Of a stretch of DNA of 64,000 nucleotides, positions 23,414 to 34,370 are shown piece after piece. Below the pieces are notes generated by a model that saw only the letters and a list, made by a program, of their open reading frames with translations, was not told where the DNA came from and did not search any database. Numbering within the stretch: the first letter of the stretch is position 1; each line of letters opens with the position of its first letter. Origin of the DNA: Halanaerobium saccharolyticum (GTDB lineage: Bacteria > Bacillota > Halanaerobiia > Halanaerobiales > Halanaerobiaceae); the NCBI RefSeq assembly GCF_003259895.1, contig NZ_QLME01000006.1:1-64000 (forward strand), written 5' to 3'. Position numbers and translations under genes: made by a program.

Positions 23414-24145
23414 TTAAGAATTATTATTCTGCTCCCTGATTTCCAGCGCCATCTCAAGATCATCAGTTATGATCATATCTACTCCTTTTTTCATTAAATC
23501 AATAACTGCTTCCGGATAATTTACTGTATAAACATTAAGCTGCATCCCCATAAAATGAGACTTATCTATTACTTCCTGATCAGCAGTTAAAAAATGTAGA
23601 TGTAAAGCATCAAAACCTCTTTTAAAACTATAATCAGCAGGATTAATCATTTTTGACATTAATAAAGCCCCAGTTCTAATTTCCGGCTGCAGTTTTTTTA
23701 CCGTCTGCAGGCTGTAATGATTAAAAGAAGAGATAATCACCTGATCTCTAATTTTAAATTGATCAACCAGCTTTAAAACCTTTGCTTCCAGGCCGGGATA
23801 AAGCAGAAAGTTTTTCAACTCAATGTTGATAACCTCTAAATTCTTAACGATTTCCAGCACCTCAGCTAAAGTTGGTATTTTTTCAGCTTTAAATTCAGGA
23901 CTAAAAAATTCACCTGCACTCATTTTGCGTAATTCACTCAAAGTATAATCTTTTAGCAGTCCACTGCCGGTCATTGTTCTATCGATCAGTTCATCATGAA
24001 TAACTACAACTTCTCCATCTTTTGTCAGCTGCACATCAAATTCTACCCCATCAGCACCCAGCTCAACTGCTTTTTTAAAAGCGACCAGAGTATTTTCCGG
24101 ATAACCCTTTACCCCACCACGGTGTCCAATAATCTTTGTCTCCAT
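23414..24145 (-). CDS. ugpQ: Glycerophosphodiester phosphodiesterase
   Basis: Hydrolyses glycerophosphodiesters to sn-glycerol-3-phosphate and an alcohol. The 243-residue cytoplasmic form without signal peptide has the GDPD signature: HRGGVKGYPENTLVAF (catalytic His and metal Glu), GADGVEFDVQLTKDGEVVVIHDE (Glu/Asp ligands and second His), then INIELKN. The lack of a signal peptide and its place just downstream of ugpB-ugpA-ugpE match E. coli UgpQ, which acts on the imported substrate. Confidence 0.93.
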   Translation of the reverse strand: METKIIGHRGGVKGYPENTLVAFKKAVELGADGVEFDVQLTKDGEVVVIHDELIDRTMTGSGLLKDYTLSELRKMSAGEFFSPEFKAEKIPTLAEVLEIVKNLEVINIELKNFLLYPGLEAKVLKLVDQFKIRDQVIISSFNHYSLQTVKKLQPEIRTGALLMSKMINPADYSFKRGFDALHLHFLTADQEVIDKSHFMGMQLNVYTVNYPEAVIDLMKKGVDMIITDDLEMALEIREQNNNS

Positions 24146-24300
24146 TAATAATCACTTCCTCTATCTATCTTTAAAAAACTTTGTTTTTATAGTTGTATAA
24201 TATAACTTTTAAAGGAGAGCTGCAAATCTGATTGAATAGTCTCGGCAGAAAATTTATATTCCACTTCTCAGCTGAAAATTATTGTATGATTTTTAACTAA

Positions 24301-25143
24301 TCATTCCTTAATTCCCTGAGTAGCTATCCCTTTAACAAAAAACTTCTGGGCCAGCAGAAAAACAACAAGAGTTGGAATTACAACCATTATTGTACCGGCC
24401 ATAATTAAACCCCATTCTCTTTCGGCTGCACTGGCAAATAACATTCTAATCCCCTGCTGGGAGACCTTCATACTATCTGAATTCAAAATAATCAGCGGCC
24501 AGAGATAGGCATTCCACATTACCAGAAAGTTAACTGTCGCCAGCCCGGCTAGAGTTGGTCCGGAAAGTGGAATTAAAATTTGAAACAAAAATCTAAATGG
24601 ACCACAGCCGTCAAGTTGGGCTGACTCCATCAATGATTTGGGGATAGTTAAAAAATGCTGTCTCATCAGAAAAGTCGTGGTTGCACTTGCCAGGAAAGGC
24701 ATTACCAGTCCTGTATAAGTATTGGTCCAGCCAAGTTTGCTGACAAAGTCAAAAAGAGGGACCACCCTGACCTGCATCGGCAGCATCAGAGTAAATAAAA
24801 TTGCAAAAAACAAAAACTTTTTTCCTTTAAATTCAAAATGCGAAAAAGCATAGCCGCTTAAAACACCAAGTGTTAACTTACCAACCATCACAATTACTGA
24901 AGCAATTAAACTATTAGTTAAAAGCCGCCCCATATTTACCAGATTCCAGGCTCTAATATAATTCCCGAAGTATAATTGATCAGGTATAAATGAAGGTGGA
25001 TAAGTAAATACCTGGGAGCGGGTCTGGAAACTTATACTGAATGCAAATAGGATCGGCATAATAACTATAAAACTTAAAATAATTAATAATAGATGGCTGA
25101 ATATCTTATCCGCTAATTCTCGTTTGTGTTTTGATTTAAACAT
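24301..25143 (-). CDS. ugpE: ABC transporter permease, UgpE-like
   Basis: Inner-membrane permease with six helices (280 residues) and the EAA loop (ESAQLDGCGPFRFLFQILIPLSGP) that contacts the ATPase. It pairs with the UgpA-like protein encoded 20 bases upstream. The receptor and the adjacent phosphodiesterase make glycerol-3-phosphate or glycerophosphodiesters the best guess for substrate. No ATPase (UgpC/MsiK) gene is nearby; a shared ATPase encoded elsewhere is common in such systems. Confidence 0.88.
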   Translation of the reverse strand: MFKSKHKRELADKIFSHLLLIILSFIVIMPILFAFSISFQTRSQVFTYPPSFIPDQLYFGNYIRAWNLVNMGRLLTNSLIASVIVMVGKLTLGVLSGYAFSHFEFKGKKFLFFAILFTLMLPMQVRVVPLFDFVSKLGWTNTYTGLVMPFLASATTTFLMRQHFLTIPKSLMESAQLDGCGPFRFLFQILIPLSGPTLAGLATVNFLVMWNAYLWPLIILNSDSMKVSQQGIRMLFASAAEREWGLIMAGTIMVVIPTLVVFLLAQKFFVKGIATQGIKE

Positions 25144-25163
25144 AATTAAGCACCTCCCCGGAT

Positions 25164-26051
25164 TTATTGATAGTGTACTCCCTTACTGCCATATCTAAAG
25201 TGGAAAAAGGTTATAATTAAAACTAAGAAAAGTAAAACTACAGATTGTGCTGCTGCCAGCCCAGGTCTAAAATTAACAAACATATCTCTATACAATTTGT
25301 AGATAACCAGATTGGTCGCATTTGCCGGACCACCCTGGGTCATAATATCAATTATTCCGAAGGCCTGAAAAACAGTAAACAGGATATTCATAATAATTAA
25401 ATAAAAAGTTGTGGGTGAAAGTAAAGGAATAGTTATTTTTCTAAAGATCTGCCAGGAATTTGCTCCATCAATTTTAGCGGATTCATAAACACTGTCCGGT
25501 ATTGACTGCAGACCTGCCAGAAAGAAAATAATATTAAAACCCATGTTTTTCCAGATAGTTGCTATTATAATTGCAATAAAAGCAAAAAAACCATTTGTAA
25601 GCCAGGGCACCTGAAAACCAAACAAAAAATCTAAAACATAATTTACATGTCCGGCAACCGGATTTAAAAGGAAAACCCAGAGTGAACCGGCAACTGTGGG
25701 AGAAATCGCATAGGGAATAAAAAAAATTGTCCTGTAAATATGGATCCCCTTTAGTTTTTTATTAAGAAAAGTAGCCAGCACTAGAGAAAATGTCAGTCCA
25801 CCAAAAATTGTGATCAGCACAAAAACTGCCGAACGCTGCAGACTATCCAGATAAGACGGATCAGTAAATAATTTTTTATAATTATCTAGACCACTGTAAA
25901 TAACACGAGAACCAAATGGGGCAGTTCTATATAGACTTAAGAAAAATGACTGGAGTGTAGGCCAGTAAAGAAAAAATATCAAAATAATCATTGAAGGAAT
26001 AATTAATAAATATGGTACTAAAAAGTGAGAATTATAATCCTGTTCTTTCAC
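25164..26051 (-). CDS. ugpA: ABC transporter permease, UgpA-like
   Basis: Six-helix permease with the EAA loop ESAKIDGANSWQIFRKITIPLLSP and the usual FFLYWPTLQSFFLSLYRTAPFG opening. I place the start at the GTG at 26051 because GGGGGGAG lies six bases upstream; this gives 295 residues, the same length as the paralogue at 29089. A TTG ten codons earlier lacks a good site. It is the partner of ugpE and of the UgpB receptor just upstream. Confidence 0.88.
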   Translation of the reverse strand: MKEQDYNSHFLVPYLLIIPSMIILIFFLYWPTLQSFFLSLYRTAPFGSRVIYSGLDNYKKLFTDPSYLDSLQRSAVFVLITIFGGLTFSLVLATFLNKKLKGIHIYRTIFFIPYAISPTVAGSLWVFLLNPVAGHVNYVLDFLFGFQVPWLTNGFFAFIAIIIATIWKNMGFNIIFFLAGLQSIPDSVYESAKIDGANSWQIFRKITIPLLSPTTFYLIIMNILFTVFQAFGIIDIMTQGGPANATNLVIYKLYRDMFVNFRPGLAAAQSVVLLFLVLIITFFHFRYGSKGVHYQ

Positions 26052-26146
26052 TGCTGTCTCCCCCCTTGGATAAAAAAACAATTCCCCTTCCAGTTTTTAA
26101 GTGGAAGGGAAATCATCTTTTTCAAATCATTTATTTAATTTAGATT

Positions 26147-27484
26147 TTATTGATAAAGTGAATTATATTCCTGTAGTGACTCATCTACCTGTGCCGCTGC
26201 ATCTTCCATAGCTTCCTGTGGAGTCATAGTCCCCTGTAAGGTCTCCTCTATTGCACTTTCTACTATCTGTCTTACTTCAGGGAAAGTCCCAATTAAAGCA
26301 CCCTGAGTTGGAGCACCTTTTTTACTTAACAGAAGCTGTAGGAATGCTGTCATATGATTTGGATTTTCAGCAAAGAACTGATTATTCATTTCTCTTTCTA
26401 CTGCTGATTTAGTTACAGGGAAATATCCTGTCTGCTCAAACCAGTAAACCTGCTGTGCTTCTTCGGTCAGAAAACTTAAGAATTCCCAGGCAGCTTCTAG
26501 CTCTTCCTGTGGATGATCTCTAAGTGCCCAGAGGCTGGCTCCACCAATAATTACTCCACCGCGATCTACACCATCAGGACGGGGTAGAAAAGCTGTACCC
26601 AGTTCATAACCTGATGCTTCAGCATTTTCGCTAAAGTTTGTAACCTGGGCGGTAGATTCGATCATCATTGCAGCACGTCCTGATAAGAATGCCTGTTTTG
26701 CACCATCCCAGCCGCGGCCAGGGTTTAACATAATCTCTTCCTCAACCATTTCTTTCCAAAGTTCAACAAATCTAACTGCTGGCTCCTGATCTAAATATGA
26801 TTCAGTTGCCCTACCATCACGGCCGTTGTTGTTATTAACCAATAGTGCATCCTGATTTGCAACCATCTGTTCTACAAACCAACCAACTATACCGAGAGTA
26901 AAACCATAGCGTTCAACATCTCCATCTTCATTTCTGATAGTCAGCTGTTCGGCATATTCTTTCAGTTCACTAAAAGTCTGTGGTGGATCATTAGGATCCA
27001 GACCGGCTTCTTTAAACGCATCTTTATTATAATATAATATAGGAGTAGATGAATTAAAAGGCATTGAGTTTAACTGCCCATCTACCTGATAATAATTAGA
27101 AACTGGTGTTAAAAATTTACCCCAATCAAAACTATCATCCTGAGCTACTTCTCTCCCAAGTTCTTCAATTGGAATGATAATTCCACTATCAACCATTACC
27201 TGAGTTCCAATTTCATAAATCTGAACAATATGAGGAGCATCCCCACTTCTTACTGCAGATTCTGTCTTAGTTAAAGTGTCATTATAAGTACCCGTATTTT
27301 GTGGCACAACCTCAATATTCGCATGCTGTTCATTAAATCTCTCAACCAGAGTCTCTGTGACCTCTAAATTGTGTCCCCCCATGGCATGCCAGAAATTAAT
27401 AGTAATCGGATCTTCCTGAGCAGCTGCAGAAAAAGTCAGCACCAAAACCAGTGATAAAGCAAGCAGCATAGTTATTTTTCTCAT
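26147..27484 (-). CDS. ugpB: ABC transporter solute-binding protein, UgpB-like, copy 1
   Basis: Secreted receptor (445 residues, signal peptide ending LTFSAAAQE) resembling glycerol-3-phosphate receptor UgpB: INFWHAMGGHN at the start, QIYEIGT, SMPFNSSTPILYYNKDAF and the VGWFVEQM segment corresponding to the UgpB Trp-containing ligand loop. It is the first gene of the ugpB-ugpA-ugpE-ugpQ operon. AAAGGGGAG precedes the ATG. A consensus promoter lies at 27568-27596, and the GGAGGTGGTA element sits at the predicted mRNA start. Confidence 0.88.
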   Translation of the reverse strand: MRKITMLLALSLVLVLTFSAAAQEDPITINFWHAMGGHNLEVTETLVERFNEQHANIEVVPQNTGTYNDTLTKTESAVRSGDAPHIVQIYEIGTQVMVDSGIIIPIEELGREVAQDDSFDWGKFLTPVSNYYQVDGQLNSMPFNSSTPILYYNKDAFKEAGLDPNDPPQTFSELKEYAEQLTIRNEDGDVERYGFTLGIVGWFVEQMVANQDALLVNNNNGRDGRATESYLDQEPAVRFVELWKEMVEEEIMLNPGRGWDGAKQAFLSGRAAMMIESTAQVTNFSENAEASGYELGTAFLPRPDGVDRGGVIIGGASLWALRDHPQEELEAAWEFLSFLTEEAQQVYWFEQTGYFPVTKSAVEREMNNQFFAENPNHMTAFLQLLLSKKGAPTQGALIGTFPEVRQIVESAIEETLQGTMTPQEAMEDAAAQVDESLQEYNSLYQ

Positions 27485-29088: not shown

Positions 29089-29976
29089 TTGAACAGTAAG
29101 TTTGCTAAAAAATATCACTATTTAGCTTATCTTTTAATTGCACCATCAATTATTATTGTTACAACCTTTTTGATCTATCCTTCTCTACAATCACTCTATT
29201 TAAGTTTTTTTCGCTCGACACCTTTTGGTAACAGAATAATTTATGTTGGTTTTCAAAACTTCCAGCGGCTTTTAACTTCTCCTGCCTACTGGAATAGTTT
29301 AACCCGTTCCATTGTTTTTACAGGAGTGACCGTTTTCATTTCTATTGCTTCTGCTCTAATCCTGGCAGTAGTGACCAATAAAAAAATTAGAGGCGCAAAA
29401 ATTTATAAAAGTTTATTAATCTGGCCATTTGCTTTTTCTTTTGCTTTTTCCGGTATTATCTGGGGAGTTTTAATGCACCCCAATGTAGGAATCATGTCCT
29501 ATTACATTCAGCTATTAACCACTTATGAATTCAACTGGATTAATAATGGAACAGCTGCTTTCATTTTAATTATTATTGCCTCCAGCTGGCGGATGCTCGG
29601 CTATAATTTCATTTTCTTTATTGCCGCCCTGCAGAATGTTTCCCCTGAACTTTTAGAAGCAGCTGATATTGATGGTGCCAGTCCTGTTACAAAATTCTGG
29701 AGGATTACTTTTCCTTTAATTTCGCCAATTACATTTTTTCTCCTGATTATGAATACTCTGCAGGTCTTCTTTTTAACTTTTGGGGTTGTAGACGTGCTAA
29801 CTCAAGGGGGGCCGGCTCGAGCCACAGATATTGTTACCTATAAATTATTTAGAGATGCTTTTTTAAGTATGAGAACCGGTTATGCCTCGGCTCAGTCGAT
29901 TATTCTCTTTGTTTTTGTAGCAGTAATCACCATAATTCAGTTTAAATATGCCGGCGAAAAAGTATTCTATCAGTAA
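29089..29976 (+). CDS. ugpA: ABC transporter permease, UgpA-like, copy 2
   Basis: A 295-residue six-helix permease, paralogous along its length to the protein at 25164-26051 (IYPSLQSLYLSFFRSTPFGNR; VVDVLTQGGPARATDIV). The EAA loop is EAADIDGASPVTKFWRITFPLISP. The start is TTG, nine bases after GGGGG. It is followed by the UgpE-like gene after 15 bases. Confidence 0.88.
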   Translation: MNSKFAKKYHYLAYLLIAPSIIIVTTFLIYPSLQSLYLSFFRSTPFGNRIIYVGFQNFQRLLTSPAYWNSLTRSIVFTGVTVFISIASALILAVVTNKKIRGAKIYKSLLIWPFAFSFAFSGIIWGVLMHPNVGIMSYYIQLLTTYEFNWINNGTAAFILIIIASSWRMLGYNFIFFIAALQNVSPELLEAADIDGASPVTKFWRITFPLISPITFFLLIMNTLQVFFLTFGVVDVLTQGGPARATDIVTYKLFRDAFLSMRTGYASAQSIILFVFVAVITIIQFKYAGEKVFYQ

Positions 29977-29991
29977 AGGGGAGAATTCAGA

Positions 29992-30819
29992 ATGAAGCGC
30001 AAAAAGTCCACTACAATTTTTATTCATCTATTCTTAATAATTTCTGTATTTTTAGTTTCATTTCCAATAATTTATGCCTTTATGGTCAGTACCCTAAATG
30101 TAAATGAAGTTTATTCTTCCCCACCAAAACTGCAGCTTGGAAACAATCTAATCAATAATTATCGAGAGGCCTGGCAGCGTTCAAATATGGGGAAATTGCT
30201 TTTTAACAGTGCTTTTATTTCAATAGTTACAGCTGTCGGTAAAATTGCACTTTCAATTTCGGCAGCCTTTGCCTTTGTCTATTTTGGAAATTTTCCGGGC
30301 AAAAATATTCTTTTTGTCATGATTTTAATTACCCACATGCTGCCGCTGCCAATCAGAATTGTTCCCACCTATCAATTAATGGACAATTTAGGCTGGCTGG
30401 ATACCTATTATGCACTGACTATCCCATTTTTCGCCAGTGCAACCGGAGTACTTTTATTTAGGCAGTTTTATATGACTGTTCCAGAATCACTGCTGGAGGC
30501 CAGCTTAATAGATGGCATTACTCCACTGAGATTTCTCTGGTCAATTTTAATCCCACTTTCTAAAAGTAATATAGTTGCCCTGTTTACTATTGAGTTTATT
30601 TGGGTCTGGAATCAATATCTCTGGCCCTTAGTAACTACTAATAGTGCCCGTGTCCGGGTGGTACAGATTGGTCTTAAAATGCTGATCCCATCTGATGCCC
30701 AACCGGAATGGAATGTAATTATGGCGGCTTTAATAATTGGTGTTATACCACCACTATTAGTTTATTTAACTCTGCAGAAAAGTCTGGTTGAAGGCTTTGC
30801 TATGCAGCAGGATAAATAA
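29992..30819 (+). CDS. ugpE: ABC transporter permease, UgpE-like, copy 2
   Basis: A 275-residue six-helix permease paralogous to the protein at 24301-25143, with the EAA loop EASLIDGITPLRFLWSILIPLSKS. GGGGAG precedes the ATG. It is followed by a 196-base gap and the interrupted receptor gene. If the receptor is dead, this permease pair would need another receptor, such as the intact UgpB at 26147-27484. Confidence 0.88.
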   Translation: MKRKKSTTIFIHLFLIISVFLVSFPIIYAFMVSTLNVNEVYSSPPKLQLGNNLINNYREAWQRSNMGKLLFNSAFISIVTAVGKIALSISAAFAFVYFGNFPGKNILFVMILITHMLPLPIRIVPTYQLMDNLGWLDTYYALTIPFFASATGVLLFRQFYMTVPESLLEASLIDGITPLRFLWSILIPLSKSNIVALFTIEFIWVWNQYLWPLVTTNSARVRVVQIGLKMLIPSDAQPEWNVIMAALIIGVIPPLLVYLTLQKSLVEGFAMQQDK

Positions 30820-31015: not shown

Positions 31016-32311
31016 ATGTTAAAAAAATCTATTATTATTTTAACCTTAGTCACTCTTTTTGCTTTTAGTGCAGCCATGGTCTCTGCTCAAACCATAGAAC
31101 TCGAATTCTGGCATGCGATGAGCGGTGGTCGTACTGCTGCAGTAGAAAAAATTGTTGATGGTTTTAATGCAGAACACGATGATATTAATGTAACAGCTCA
31201 ATTTACCGGCAGTTATGCAGAAACTTTAACTCAGGGAATTTCTGCTGTCCGCTCCGGTAATCCTCCCCATATTATTCAGGTTTATGAAGTAGGTACTCAG
31301 ACAATGTTAGATAGTGAAGCAATTGTACCTGTTTACGAAATAGCAGAAGGTAAAATTGACTTCGGTAGTGTTATTCAGCCTATTTTAAACTACTATAGTG
31401 TTGATGGTCATCTTTATTCTATGCCCTTTAACTCCTCAACTGCAATGCTTTATTACAACAAAGATGCATTTGCAGAAGCAGGTATAGCAGCTGTTCCAGA
31501 AACCTGGGCAGACATTGAAGAAATGGGTCTGCAGATAATAAACAGTGGTGCAGCAAATCATGGTTTATCTTTTGGCTGGCCGGCCTAGATTTTAGAACAG
31601 ATGCATGCTTATCACAACAAACCTTATGCAAATAACGATAATGGCCGCAGCGGCCGAGCAAATGAAGTTTACCTTGACCGTGATTTTGCTAAAATGGTTC
31701 TGGGAACCTGGACAGATTTGGTAGAAAAAGATGTTGTAGCTTATGGAGGCCGTGAATATTCTGCCAACCAGGATTTCTTAGCCGGTGAAGTTGCAATGTT
31801 AATTCAGTCAACTTCTTCTTTAAGTTCAATTATTGAATCTGCTGATTTTGAAGTCGGTACTACCTTCTTACCTCGTATTGAAGGTTATGGAATTGGTAAT
31901 TCAGTCATTGGTGGAGCTTCTCTCTGGGTAATGCAGGGTCACAGTGATCAAGAATATGCGGCAGTAGTAGAATTTTTTAAATATCTGAGTTCAACTGATG
32001 TTACAATTCAGTGGCACAAAGATACAGGCTATTTCCCGGCAACAAATGCAGCCGTTAAAACTCTAATGGATAACCACTGGTTTAGCGACAATCCTAACTA
32101 CTTAACAGCTTTTCTGCAGGTCTTAAGTGGAGTCCAGTCCCCAGCAGCCAATGGTGTACTCTTAGGAAACTTTGTTGAGATCAGAGATATTGTTGATACA
32201 GCAGTAGAAGAAGCATTTACAGGAGTTTCTTCTGCTGACGAAGCCCTAAACAAAGCTGATCAACAGGCTGACAGTGTGCTTCAGGATTATACAGAGTTAT
32301 TTGATAACTAA
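31016..32311 (+). pseudogene. ugpB: UgpB-like solute-binding protein, copy 2, interrupted by an in-frame amber codon
   Basis: A single 432-codon frame with a signal peptide (ending AAMVSAQ), ELEFWHAMSGG, QVYEVGT, SMPFNSSTAMLYYNKDAF and later SVIGGASLWVMQG, all UgpB-like. TAG at 31586-31588 (codon 191) lies in GLSFGWPA-stop-ILEQM. The intact paralogue has GIVGWFVEQM there and E. coli UgpB has a ligand-loop Trp, so TGG to TAG is the simplest reading. The frame is otherwise open, with no second lesion. A possible restart at 31601 would give a fragment without signal peptide. TAG ends several other genes here, so general read-through is unlikely. A sequencing error remains possible. Confidence 0.85.
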
Positions 32312-32506: not shown

Positions 32507-33340
32507 ATGAGTGATTTAAATGATCTAAAAGAAATAAAATTTTTTATGCTGGATATGGATGGGACAATTTATCTGGAAAACGATATATTGAAGGGGAGTC
32601 TGGACTTTTTAGAAAAACTTGAAAAGACAGACAGAGATTACATATTCTTAACTAATAATTCTTCTAAAAATAGAGCTGATTATCAGCAAAAACTGGCTCA
32701 AATGCAAATTGAAGTTACAGCTGAAAAGATTATTAACTCAGGTGAGATTACTGCCTCTTATCTGGCAGAAGAGGGAAATAAGAAGGGGAAAAGAATTTAT
32801 CTTTTAGGAACAGAGTCTTTAAAAAAGGAAATGGAACGTTTTGGCCATCAAATTGTCAATGGAGAAGAAAATATTAAAGAGAAAGCAGAAAGTGTAGATT
32901 ATGTAGTTCTAGGTTTTGATAAAAGCTTAACTTATCAAAAACTCTGGGATGCCCATGAGCTGATACTATCCGGCGTTAATTATGTAGCCACCCATCCGGA
33001 TCTGGTCTGTCCTTTAAGTGGGGGCAAAACCCAACCTGATACAGGAGCAATGATCGAACTGCTGGCAGCCACAACGGGTAAAAGACCTCTAATTGTGGGC
33101 AAACCATCCAATCTTACTGTTGAATATATTTTAAAAAGATTTAATTTAAAAAAATCTGAGCTGGCAATGGTGGGAGATCGCTTATATACCGACATGAGGA
33201 TGGCTCATGATGCAGGAATTACAGGAATCTTAGTTTTGAGTGGAGAAAGTAAAAGAGATGACTTAAAAGAGCTGAGTGCTGATCAAAAGTATTATGATTA
33301 TGTTTTTGAAAGTGTAGCTGAATTAAAAAAAGAGTTATAA
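32507..33340 (+). CDS. HAD-superfamily phosphatase, NagD/AraL-like (HAD-IIA)
   Basis: A cytosolic phosphatase of 277 residues. Motif I is MLDMDGTIY, motif II LTNNSS, motif III Lys in GKPSN and motif IV VGDRLYTDM, with the large C2 cap typical of HAD-IIA. Relatives hydrolyse phosphoglycolate, glycerol phosphates, sugar phosphates or p-nitrophenyl phosphate. Its position after ugp-type genes makes glycerol-3-phosphate a possible substrate; that is inference. AAAGGGG precedes the ATG. Confidence 0.88.
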   Translation: MSDLNDLKEIKFFMLDMDGTIYLENDILKGSLDFLEKLEKTDRDYIFLTNNSSKNRADYQQKLAQMQIEVTAEKIINSGEITASYLAEEGNKKGKRIYLLGTESLKKEMERFGHQIVNGEENIKEKAESVDYVVLGFDKSLTYQKLWDAHELILSGVNYVATHPDLVCPLSGGKTQPDTGAMIELLAATTGKRPLIVGKPSNLTVEYILKRFNLKKSELAMVGDRLYTDMRMAHDAGITGILVLSGESKRDDLKELSADQKYYDYVFESVAELKKEL

Positions 33341-33500: not shown

Positions 33501-34370
33501 CTACAGGTCTTGCTTAATCTTTAAAGCAGTAGGAGTTACTGCCAGTCCTCCGCGAGATGTTTCTTTAAGACAGGTCGGCATCTGATCACCAATTTCTGTC
33601 ATGGCCATAATGACCTCATCTGCCGGAATCACACTTTCAATTCCTGCCAGTGCCATTGTAGAAGCTGTATAAGCATGAGCGGCAGCAAAAGCATTTCGTT
33701 TTACACAGGGCACTTCTACAAGTCCTGCTACTGGATCACAAACTAAACCCAGCAGATTTTTTAAAGCCACTGCAAAAGCATCAGCCGCCATCCGGGGACT
33801 GCCTCCCCTGAGCTCAACAGCTGCTCCTGCCGCCATTGCAGCTCCAACTCCACATTCAGCCTGACAGCCACCGGCCGCACCAGCCAGAGTCGCTTTTCTG
33901 GAGACAACATAACCCAGTCCTGCTGCAGTAAATAAAGCTTCTACCAGCTTCTGATCACTTAAACTATTTTCTTCTCCAATTGCAAGCACCACTGCAGGAA
34001 CTATTCCGCTGACCCCAGCAGTCGGTCCGGCCACAATCTTACCCATCCCTGCATTAACCTCTGCAGTAGCCAGGGCATAAGTAATCATTTTATTATATAT
34101 ATTATTCTGCTCAGATTTTGAGGCAGTAGTTAGATATTTTTCCAGCTTAAGAGCCTCATCTCCAACCAGGCCACCTCCGGTCTGAATATTATTTTTGCGG
34201 CCATAATCAACAGCCTCTTTCATTACATTTAAATTTGCCAGCATTGATTTTCTGACCTCTGCCTCAGTCATTTCTTCCTCTTCAGCTTCAACCTGGAGTA
34301 CTATCTTCCAGATAGAAGTTTCAGCAGCTTCAGCCAGTGAGACAAGCTCTTTTATTGTAGCATATTCCAT
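33501..34370 (-). CDS. sdaAA: L-serine dehydratase, iron-sulfur type, alpha subunit
   Basis: Catalytic subunit of the oxygen-sensitive [4Fe-4S] L-serine ammonia-lyase, giving pyruvate and ammonia. The 289 residues include the cluster Cys residues in GGCQAECGVG and CDPVAGLVEVPCVKRN and the conserved GPTAGVSGIVPAVV stretch. It lies ten bases after sdaAB. Stop codon TAG. Confidence 0.95.
   Translation of the reverse strand: MEYATIKELVSLAEAAETSIWKIVLQVEAEEEEMTEAEVRKSMLANLNVMKEAVDYGRKNNIQTGGGLVGDEALKLEKYLTTASKSEQNNIYNKMITYALATAEVNAGMGKIVAGPTAGVSGIVPAVVLAIGEENSLSDQKLVEALFTAAGLGYVVSRKATLAGAAGGCQAECGVGAAMAAGAAVELRGGSPRMAADAFAVALKNLLGLVCDPVAGLVEVPCVKRNAFAAAHAYTASTMALAGIESVIPADEVIMAMTEIGDQMPTCLKETSRGGLAVTPTALKIKQDL

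Follow-up and report, generated by a model that had tools for sequence, protein, structure and literature searches.

A solute-binding protein gene of the sn-glycerol-3-phosphate type, ugpB2, in a Halanaerobium genome contains an in-frame TAG, and the question arises whether this codon terminates the protein, is decoded as an amino acid, varies within the strain population or is an error of the sequence. The genome (3.31 Mb), assigned to its genus by the names of the orthologues, is a draft of 63 contigs, and the window, which is the whole stretch of 64,000 nucleotides analysed here, lies on contig C6. The ugpB2 frame (31016-32311, plus strand) runs from the ATG at 31016 to the TAA at 32309-32311, comprises 431 residues plus the stop, and is open apart from one TAG at 31586-31588, which is codon 191. 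Reading of 31016-32311 confirmed on this point the preliminary description, where a single amber codon in an otherwise intact frame had been reported.

When read through, the ugpB2 protein has NF008211 (UgpB) as its best NCBIfam match, at 310 bits; this falls short of the equivalog cut-off, 411 bits. Each half separately matches an extracellular solute-binding family in Pfam. The N-terminal fragment of 190 codons (31016-31588, plus strand), which by inspection is composed of a signal peptide and part of the N-terminal lobe, matches SBP_bac_1 (profile positions 5-147 of 307), and the C-terminal fragment (31589-32311, plus strand) matches SBP_bac_8 (profile positions 156-276 of 279). For the first ATG of the C-terminal fragment, at 31601, a scan showed no Shine-Dalgarno-like motif, and inspection gave no sign of a signal peptide.

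The neighbouring permease genes are intact. They lie upstream and are ugpA2 (29089-29976, plus strand; NF007852, 231 bits, below cut-off), 93-95% identical to its counterpart at the same locus in five relatives, and ugpE2 (29992-30819, plus strand; NF008210, 252 bits, below cut-off), 94-97% identical in five relatives. Downstream is the gene of a HAD-type phosphatase (32507-33340, plus strand), recognised by Pfam Hydrolase_6 and Hydrolase_like and by synteny, and the gene order ugpA2-ugpE2-ugpB2-HAD phosphatase is common to all six species. The window also carries, on the opposite strand, a divergent and intact first Ugp set (23414-27484, minus strand) composed of ugpB1, ugpA1, ugpE1 and a glycerophosphodiester phosphodiesterase gene, and a third ugpB-A-E-like set is present on contig C2 at approximately 94.9-98.0 kb.

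Out of the 12 genomes of the genus searched for orthologues, five besides the window genome carry ugpB2. With the stop read through, the protein shares 91-95% identity with these five orthologues, which are free of a TAG at codon 191. The codon is TGG in all five, in the context GCC TGG AT(T/C), so one G-to-A transition, placed at 31587, accounts for the TAG, as had been proposed from the window alone. In wider relatives position 191 is W in 73 of 75 loci, C in one and T in one, and no stop interrupts any of the 75. An internal TAG in the solute-binding protein of another species (G008:C4) was discarded, the alignment having merely run to its normal stop. A one-base frameshift affects the WC1 (G007) copy of ugpB2 around codon 399 and gives it a different C-terminus over roughly the last 30 residues; this is either an independent break of the same gene or an error.

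In UgpB the glycerol moiety of the ligand is clamped between two tryptophans, Trp188 and Trp191, a role supported by mutagenesis (PMC12718374). W191 of ugpB2 aligns with the second clamp tryptophan of the solved UgpB structures. Both tryptophans of the GWxxW motif, W188 and W191, are kept in the orthologues; the window copy retains W188 and has TAG in place of the W191 codon. The tryptophan of GIVGWFVEQM in the paralogue ugpB1 (26147-27484, minus strand) and the second one of GWQGWIQLE in E. coli UgpB (4AQ4) both align with the stop, and the preliminary description had read both correctly. UgpB1 has kept the second clamp tryptophan and has Ile at the first position (GIVGW versus GWPAW), and its ligand may therefore differ. 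As the change in ugpB2 is a stop, the loss is not that of the tryptophan as such, on which attention had first been fixed, but that of the whole C-terminal 241 residues, with ligand-contact residues among them. The lost part includes the invariant alignment columns S265, G300, Y339 and R390, which according to our own mapping would correspond to the ligand-contacting Ser266, Gly303, Tyr342 and Arg393 of PMC12718374.

If the TAG were decoded, as pyrrolysine, as selenocysteine or by an amber suppressor, the full-length protein would still be made, and the constraint which persists 3' of the stop (see below) would be in keeping with this. The order Halanaerobiales includes the pyrrolysine-decoding Acetohalobium arabaticum. 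Against decoding, a profile search of the genome yielded nothing above the PylS cut-off; two weak matches lie in ORFs read by eye as lysyl- and threonyl-tRNA synthetases (LysRS, ThrRS) and were rejected. No pyrrolysine-type trimethylamine methyltransferase (MttB-type) was found in the genome either. The tRNA genes were represented by 51 Rfam matches read by ARAGORN, one of them cut by a contig end and read by eye as anticodon GTT; a CUA anticodon was absent from the tRNAs read by Rfam and ARAGORN in the 63-contig draft, with 150 of 296 first-look candidates scored. Two identical genes encode tRNA-Trp (anticodon CCA). The two tRNA-Sec genes both have the anticodon TCA, and so read UGA, and neither has CUA. 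These two genes (C2:84562 and C5:90544; L169 and L170) are non-identical, one lying beside a selB-like gene and the other after a chemotaxis-receptor-like gene; two tRNA-Sec copies have likewise been reported in H. praevalens (PMC5330540). The prfA gene for RF1 is intact, which rules out loss of this release factor.

TAG is moreover a common terminator in this genome: a sample of 700 kb contains 402 ORFs that reach 250 codons or more, and 77 of them end in TAG. Within the window sdaAA (33501-34370) ends in TAG, as had been remarked earlier, and two other ORFs checked do likewise. The 100 bases from the stop fold no better than shuffled sequences (z 0.42), so that no RNA structure was seen 3' of it. 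The in-frame TAG is not conserved among the ugpB2 orthologues, and their TGG means that there is no conserved recoding at codon 191. Pyrrolysine, UAG-selenocysteine and amber-suppressor decoding were thus set aside, the machinery having been sought and none found; the search for pylS, pylT or an amber suppressor tRNA that had been proposed at the outset came out negative in this draft genome, for tRNAs within the reading by Rfam and ARAGORN, and the doubt expressed there about pyrrolysine was borne out. Read-through of the ugpB2 stop is very unlikely. We give decoding of the TAG hardly any probability, and as little to an undetected amber-suppressing tRNA which suppresses UAG usefully enough for the protein still to be made.

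The stop is not the only one of its kind in the genome. We searched 700 kb for places where a single stop divides two coding-like segments that share a frame, a crude filter under which most pairs were ordinary neighbouring genes. Two further conserved genes are broken by TAA. The first break lies at C6:66274 (approximately 2274-2276 of L156, minus strand), where codon 125 of a gene for a small beta-barrel-like protein is an in-frame TAA; nine aligned relatives have no stop at this codon, with E, Q, S or N in its place. The G010 copy of this gene has a TAG near its C-terminus. The second, at C8:66769 (approximately 6769-6771 of L204), is an in-frame TAA inside the GGDEF domain, identified by eye, of a GGDEF-type signalling protein whose gene is intact in two relatives, G006 and G007. 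The scan also returned in-frame TGA codons at C2:72294 and C2:75087, in genes with motifs typical of the glycine reductase proteins GrdA and GrdB; judged by these motifs they are probably selenocysteine codons, and their recovery suggests that the scan can detect recoded genes. Such probable recoding of TGA in the same genome is a second point in favour of decoding at codon 191, against which stands that both of the other interruptions are by TAA. From three nonsense cases in the 700 kb, one TAG and two TAA, we extrapolate to about 14 genome-wide, a rough figure, so that the ugpB2 stop would belong to a set of roughly a dozen nonsense mutations. With amber being one of three cases, nothing points to UAG specifically.

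The sequence around the stop is undegraded. In pairwise comparisons of the window ugpB2 with the others, dN/dS is 0.02-0.08 for the part before the stop and 0.03-0.06 for the part after it, and among the other five orthologues it lies in the same range. Purifying selection has left its signature 5' and 3' of the stop alike, which indicates that the change is very young. Singletons of the window branch in ugpB2 are 11 synonymous and 2 non-synonymous, where neutrality over the full length of the branch would predict approximately 39 non-synonymous ones. With 15% of the branch neutral, the probability of at most two is 0.07, and with 20% it is 0.016. The stop therefore probably arose within about the last 15-20%, or less, of the branch of its lineage, an estimate which is rough owing to small counts and the use of no tree model. 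Singleton amino-acid changes are fewer on the window branch than in four of the five relatives. The two present, F288I and R354H, are both located 3' of the stop, at positions that do not vary in the rest of the genus, and are suggestive, as far as only two changes can be, of relaxed constraint after inactivation.

An intact gene with a sequencing or assembly (consensus) error at codon 191 would also be expected to show the TAG as a singleton in otherwise undegraded and constrained sequence, and the assembly is a draft. However, an error rate giving three nonsense codons in 700 kb should yield many odd amino-acid changes, and the ugpB2 branch has two; nor do the other listed solute-binding protein paralogues of the genome contain an internal stop. 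We regard such an error as unlikely. There is a smaller chance still, a slight one, that codon 191 is polymorphic or switches reversibly within the strain population. A very young loss is expected to pass through a polymorphic stage, but a one-base substitution outside any repeat would be an unusual mechanism for switching, and the phase-variable site initially considered found no support as a repeat-driven switch, the change being a substitution. The ancestral TGG sits in CCTGG, and the change is that expected from deamination of 5-methylcytosine; a hot spot of this type is nevertheless unsupported, since no DNA C5-methylase that could make it one was found in the genome by PF00145.

We conclude that ugpB2 is likely to be a very young nonsense pseudogene, either fixed or polymorphic: the premature stop occurs in one lineage only and cuts off conserved functional residues, as defines such a pseudogene. 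This had been the first of the possibilities originally offered, and it is favoured by the TGG of the orthologues, the undegraded sequence, the lack of detectable suppression machinery and the further nonsense-broken genes of the genome. If the base call at 31587 is correct, as we take it to be, a single G-to-A transition would have made TAG out of the TGG that encodes W191, the second clamp tryptophan, and RF1 would terminate at this codon to leave a stub of 190 residues. The stub, deprived of the rest of the ligand site (S265, G300, Y339, R390), is not expected to function as a binding protein. The permease genes upstream are intact, and the two other Ugp-like systems, the divergent set of the window and that of contig C2, could cover the loss. 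The different break of the WC1 copy hints, if only weakly, that the cell can do without ugpB2 when the other Ugp set is present. A nonsense break of this kind is an ordinary event with little implication beyond annotation, where ugpB2 is best marked as a probable pseudogene. Gene content alone does not justify assigning this strain a complete second Ugp importer, and amber recoding need not be invoked for this member of the Halanaerobiales.

Acetohalobium arabaticum decodes TAG as pyrrolysine, whereas the window genome, of the same order and with an in-frame TAG, shows no PylS, CUA tRNA or pyrrolysine methyltransferase. The closest solved relatives of ugpB2 by sequence are UgpB of Phaeobacter (PDB 9LFF/9LFJ; PMC12718374) and of E. 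coli (4AQ4); the second clamp tryptophan of UgpB falls at codon 191, where the window ugpB2 is cut, and a complete binding protein is not expected. The orthologues of Halanaerobium kushneri, H. saccharolyticum and H. congolense are 91-96% identical and lie in the same operon as in the window; they have TGG at codon 191, where the window copy has TAG.
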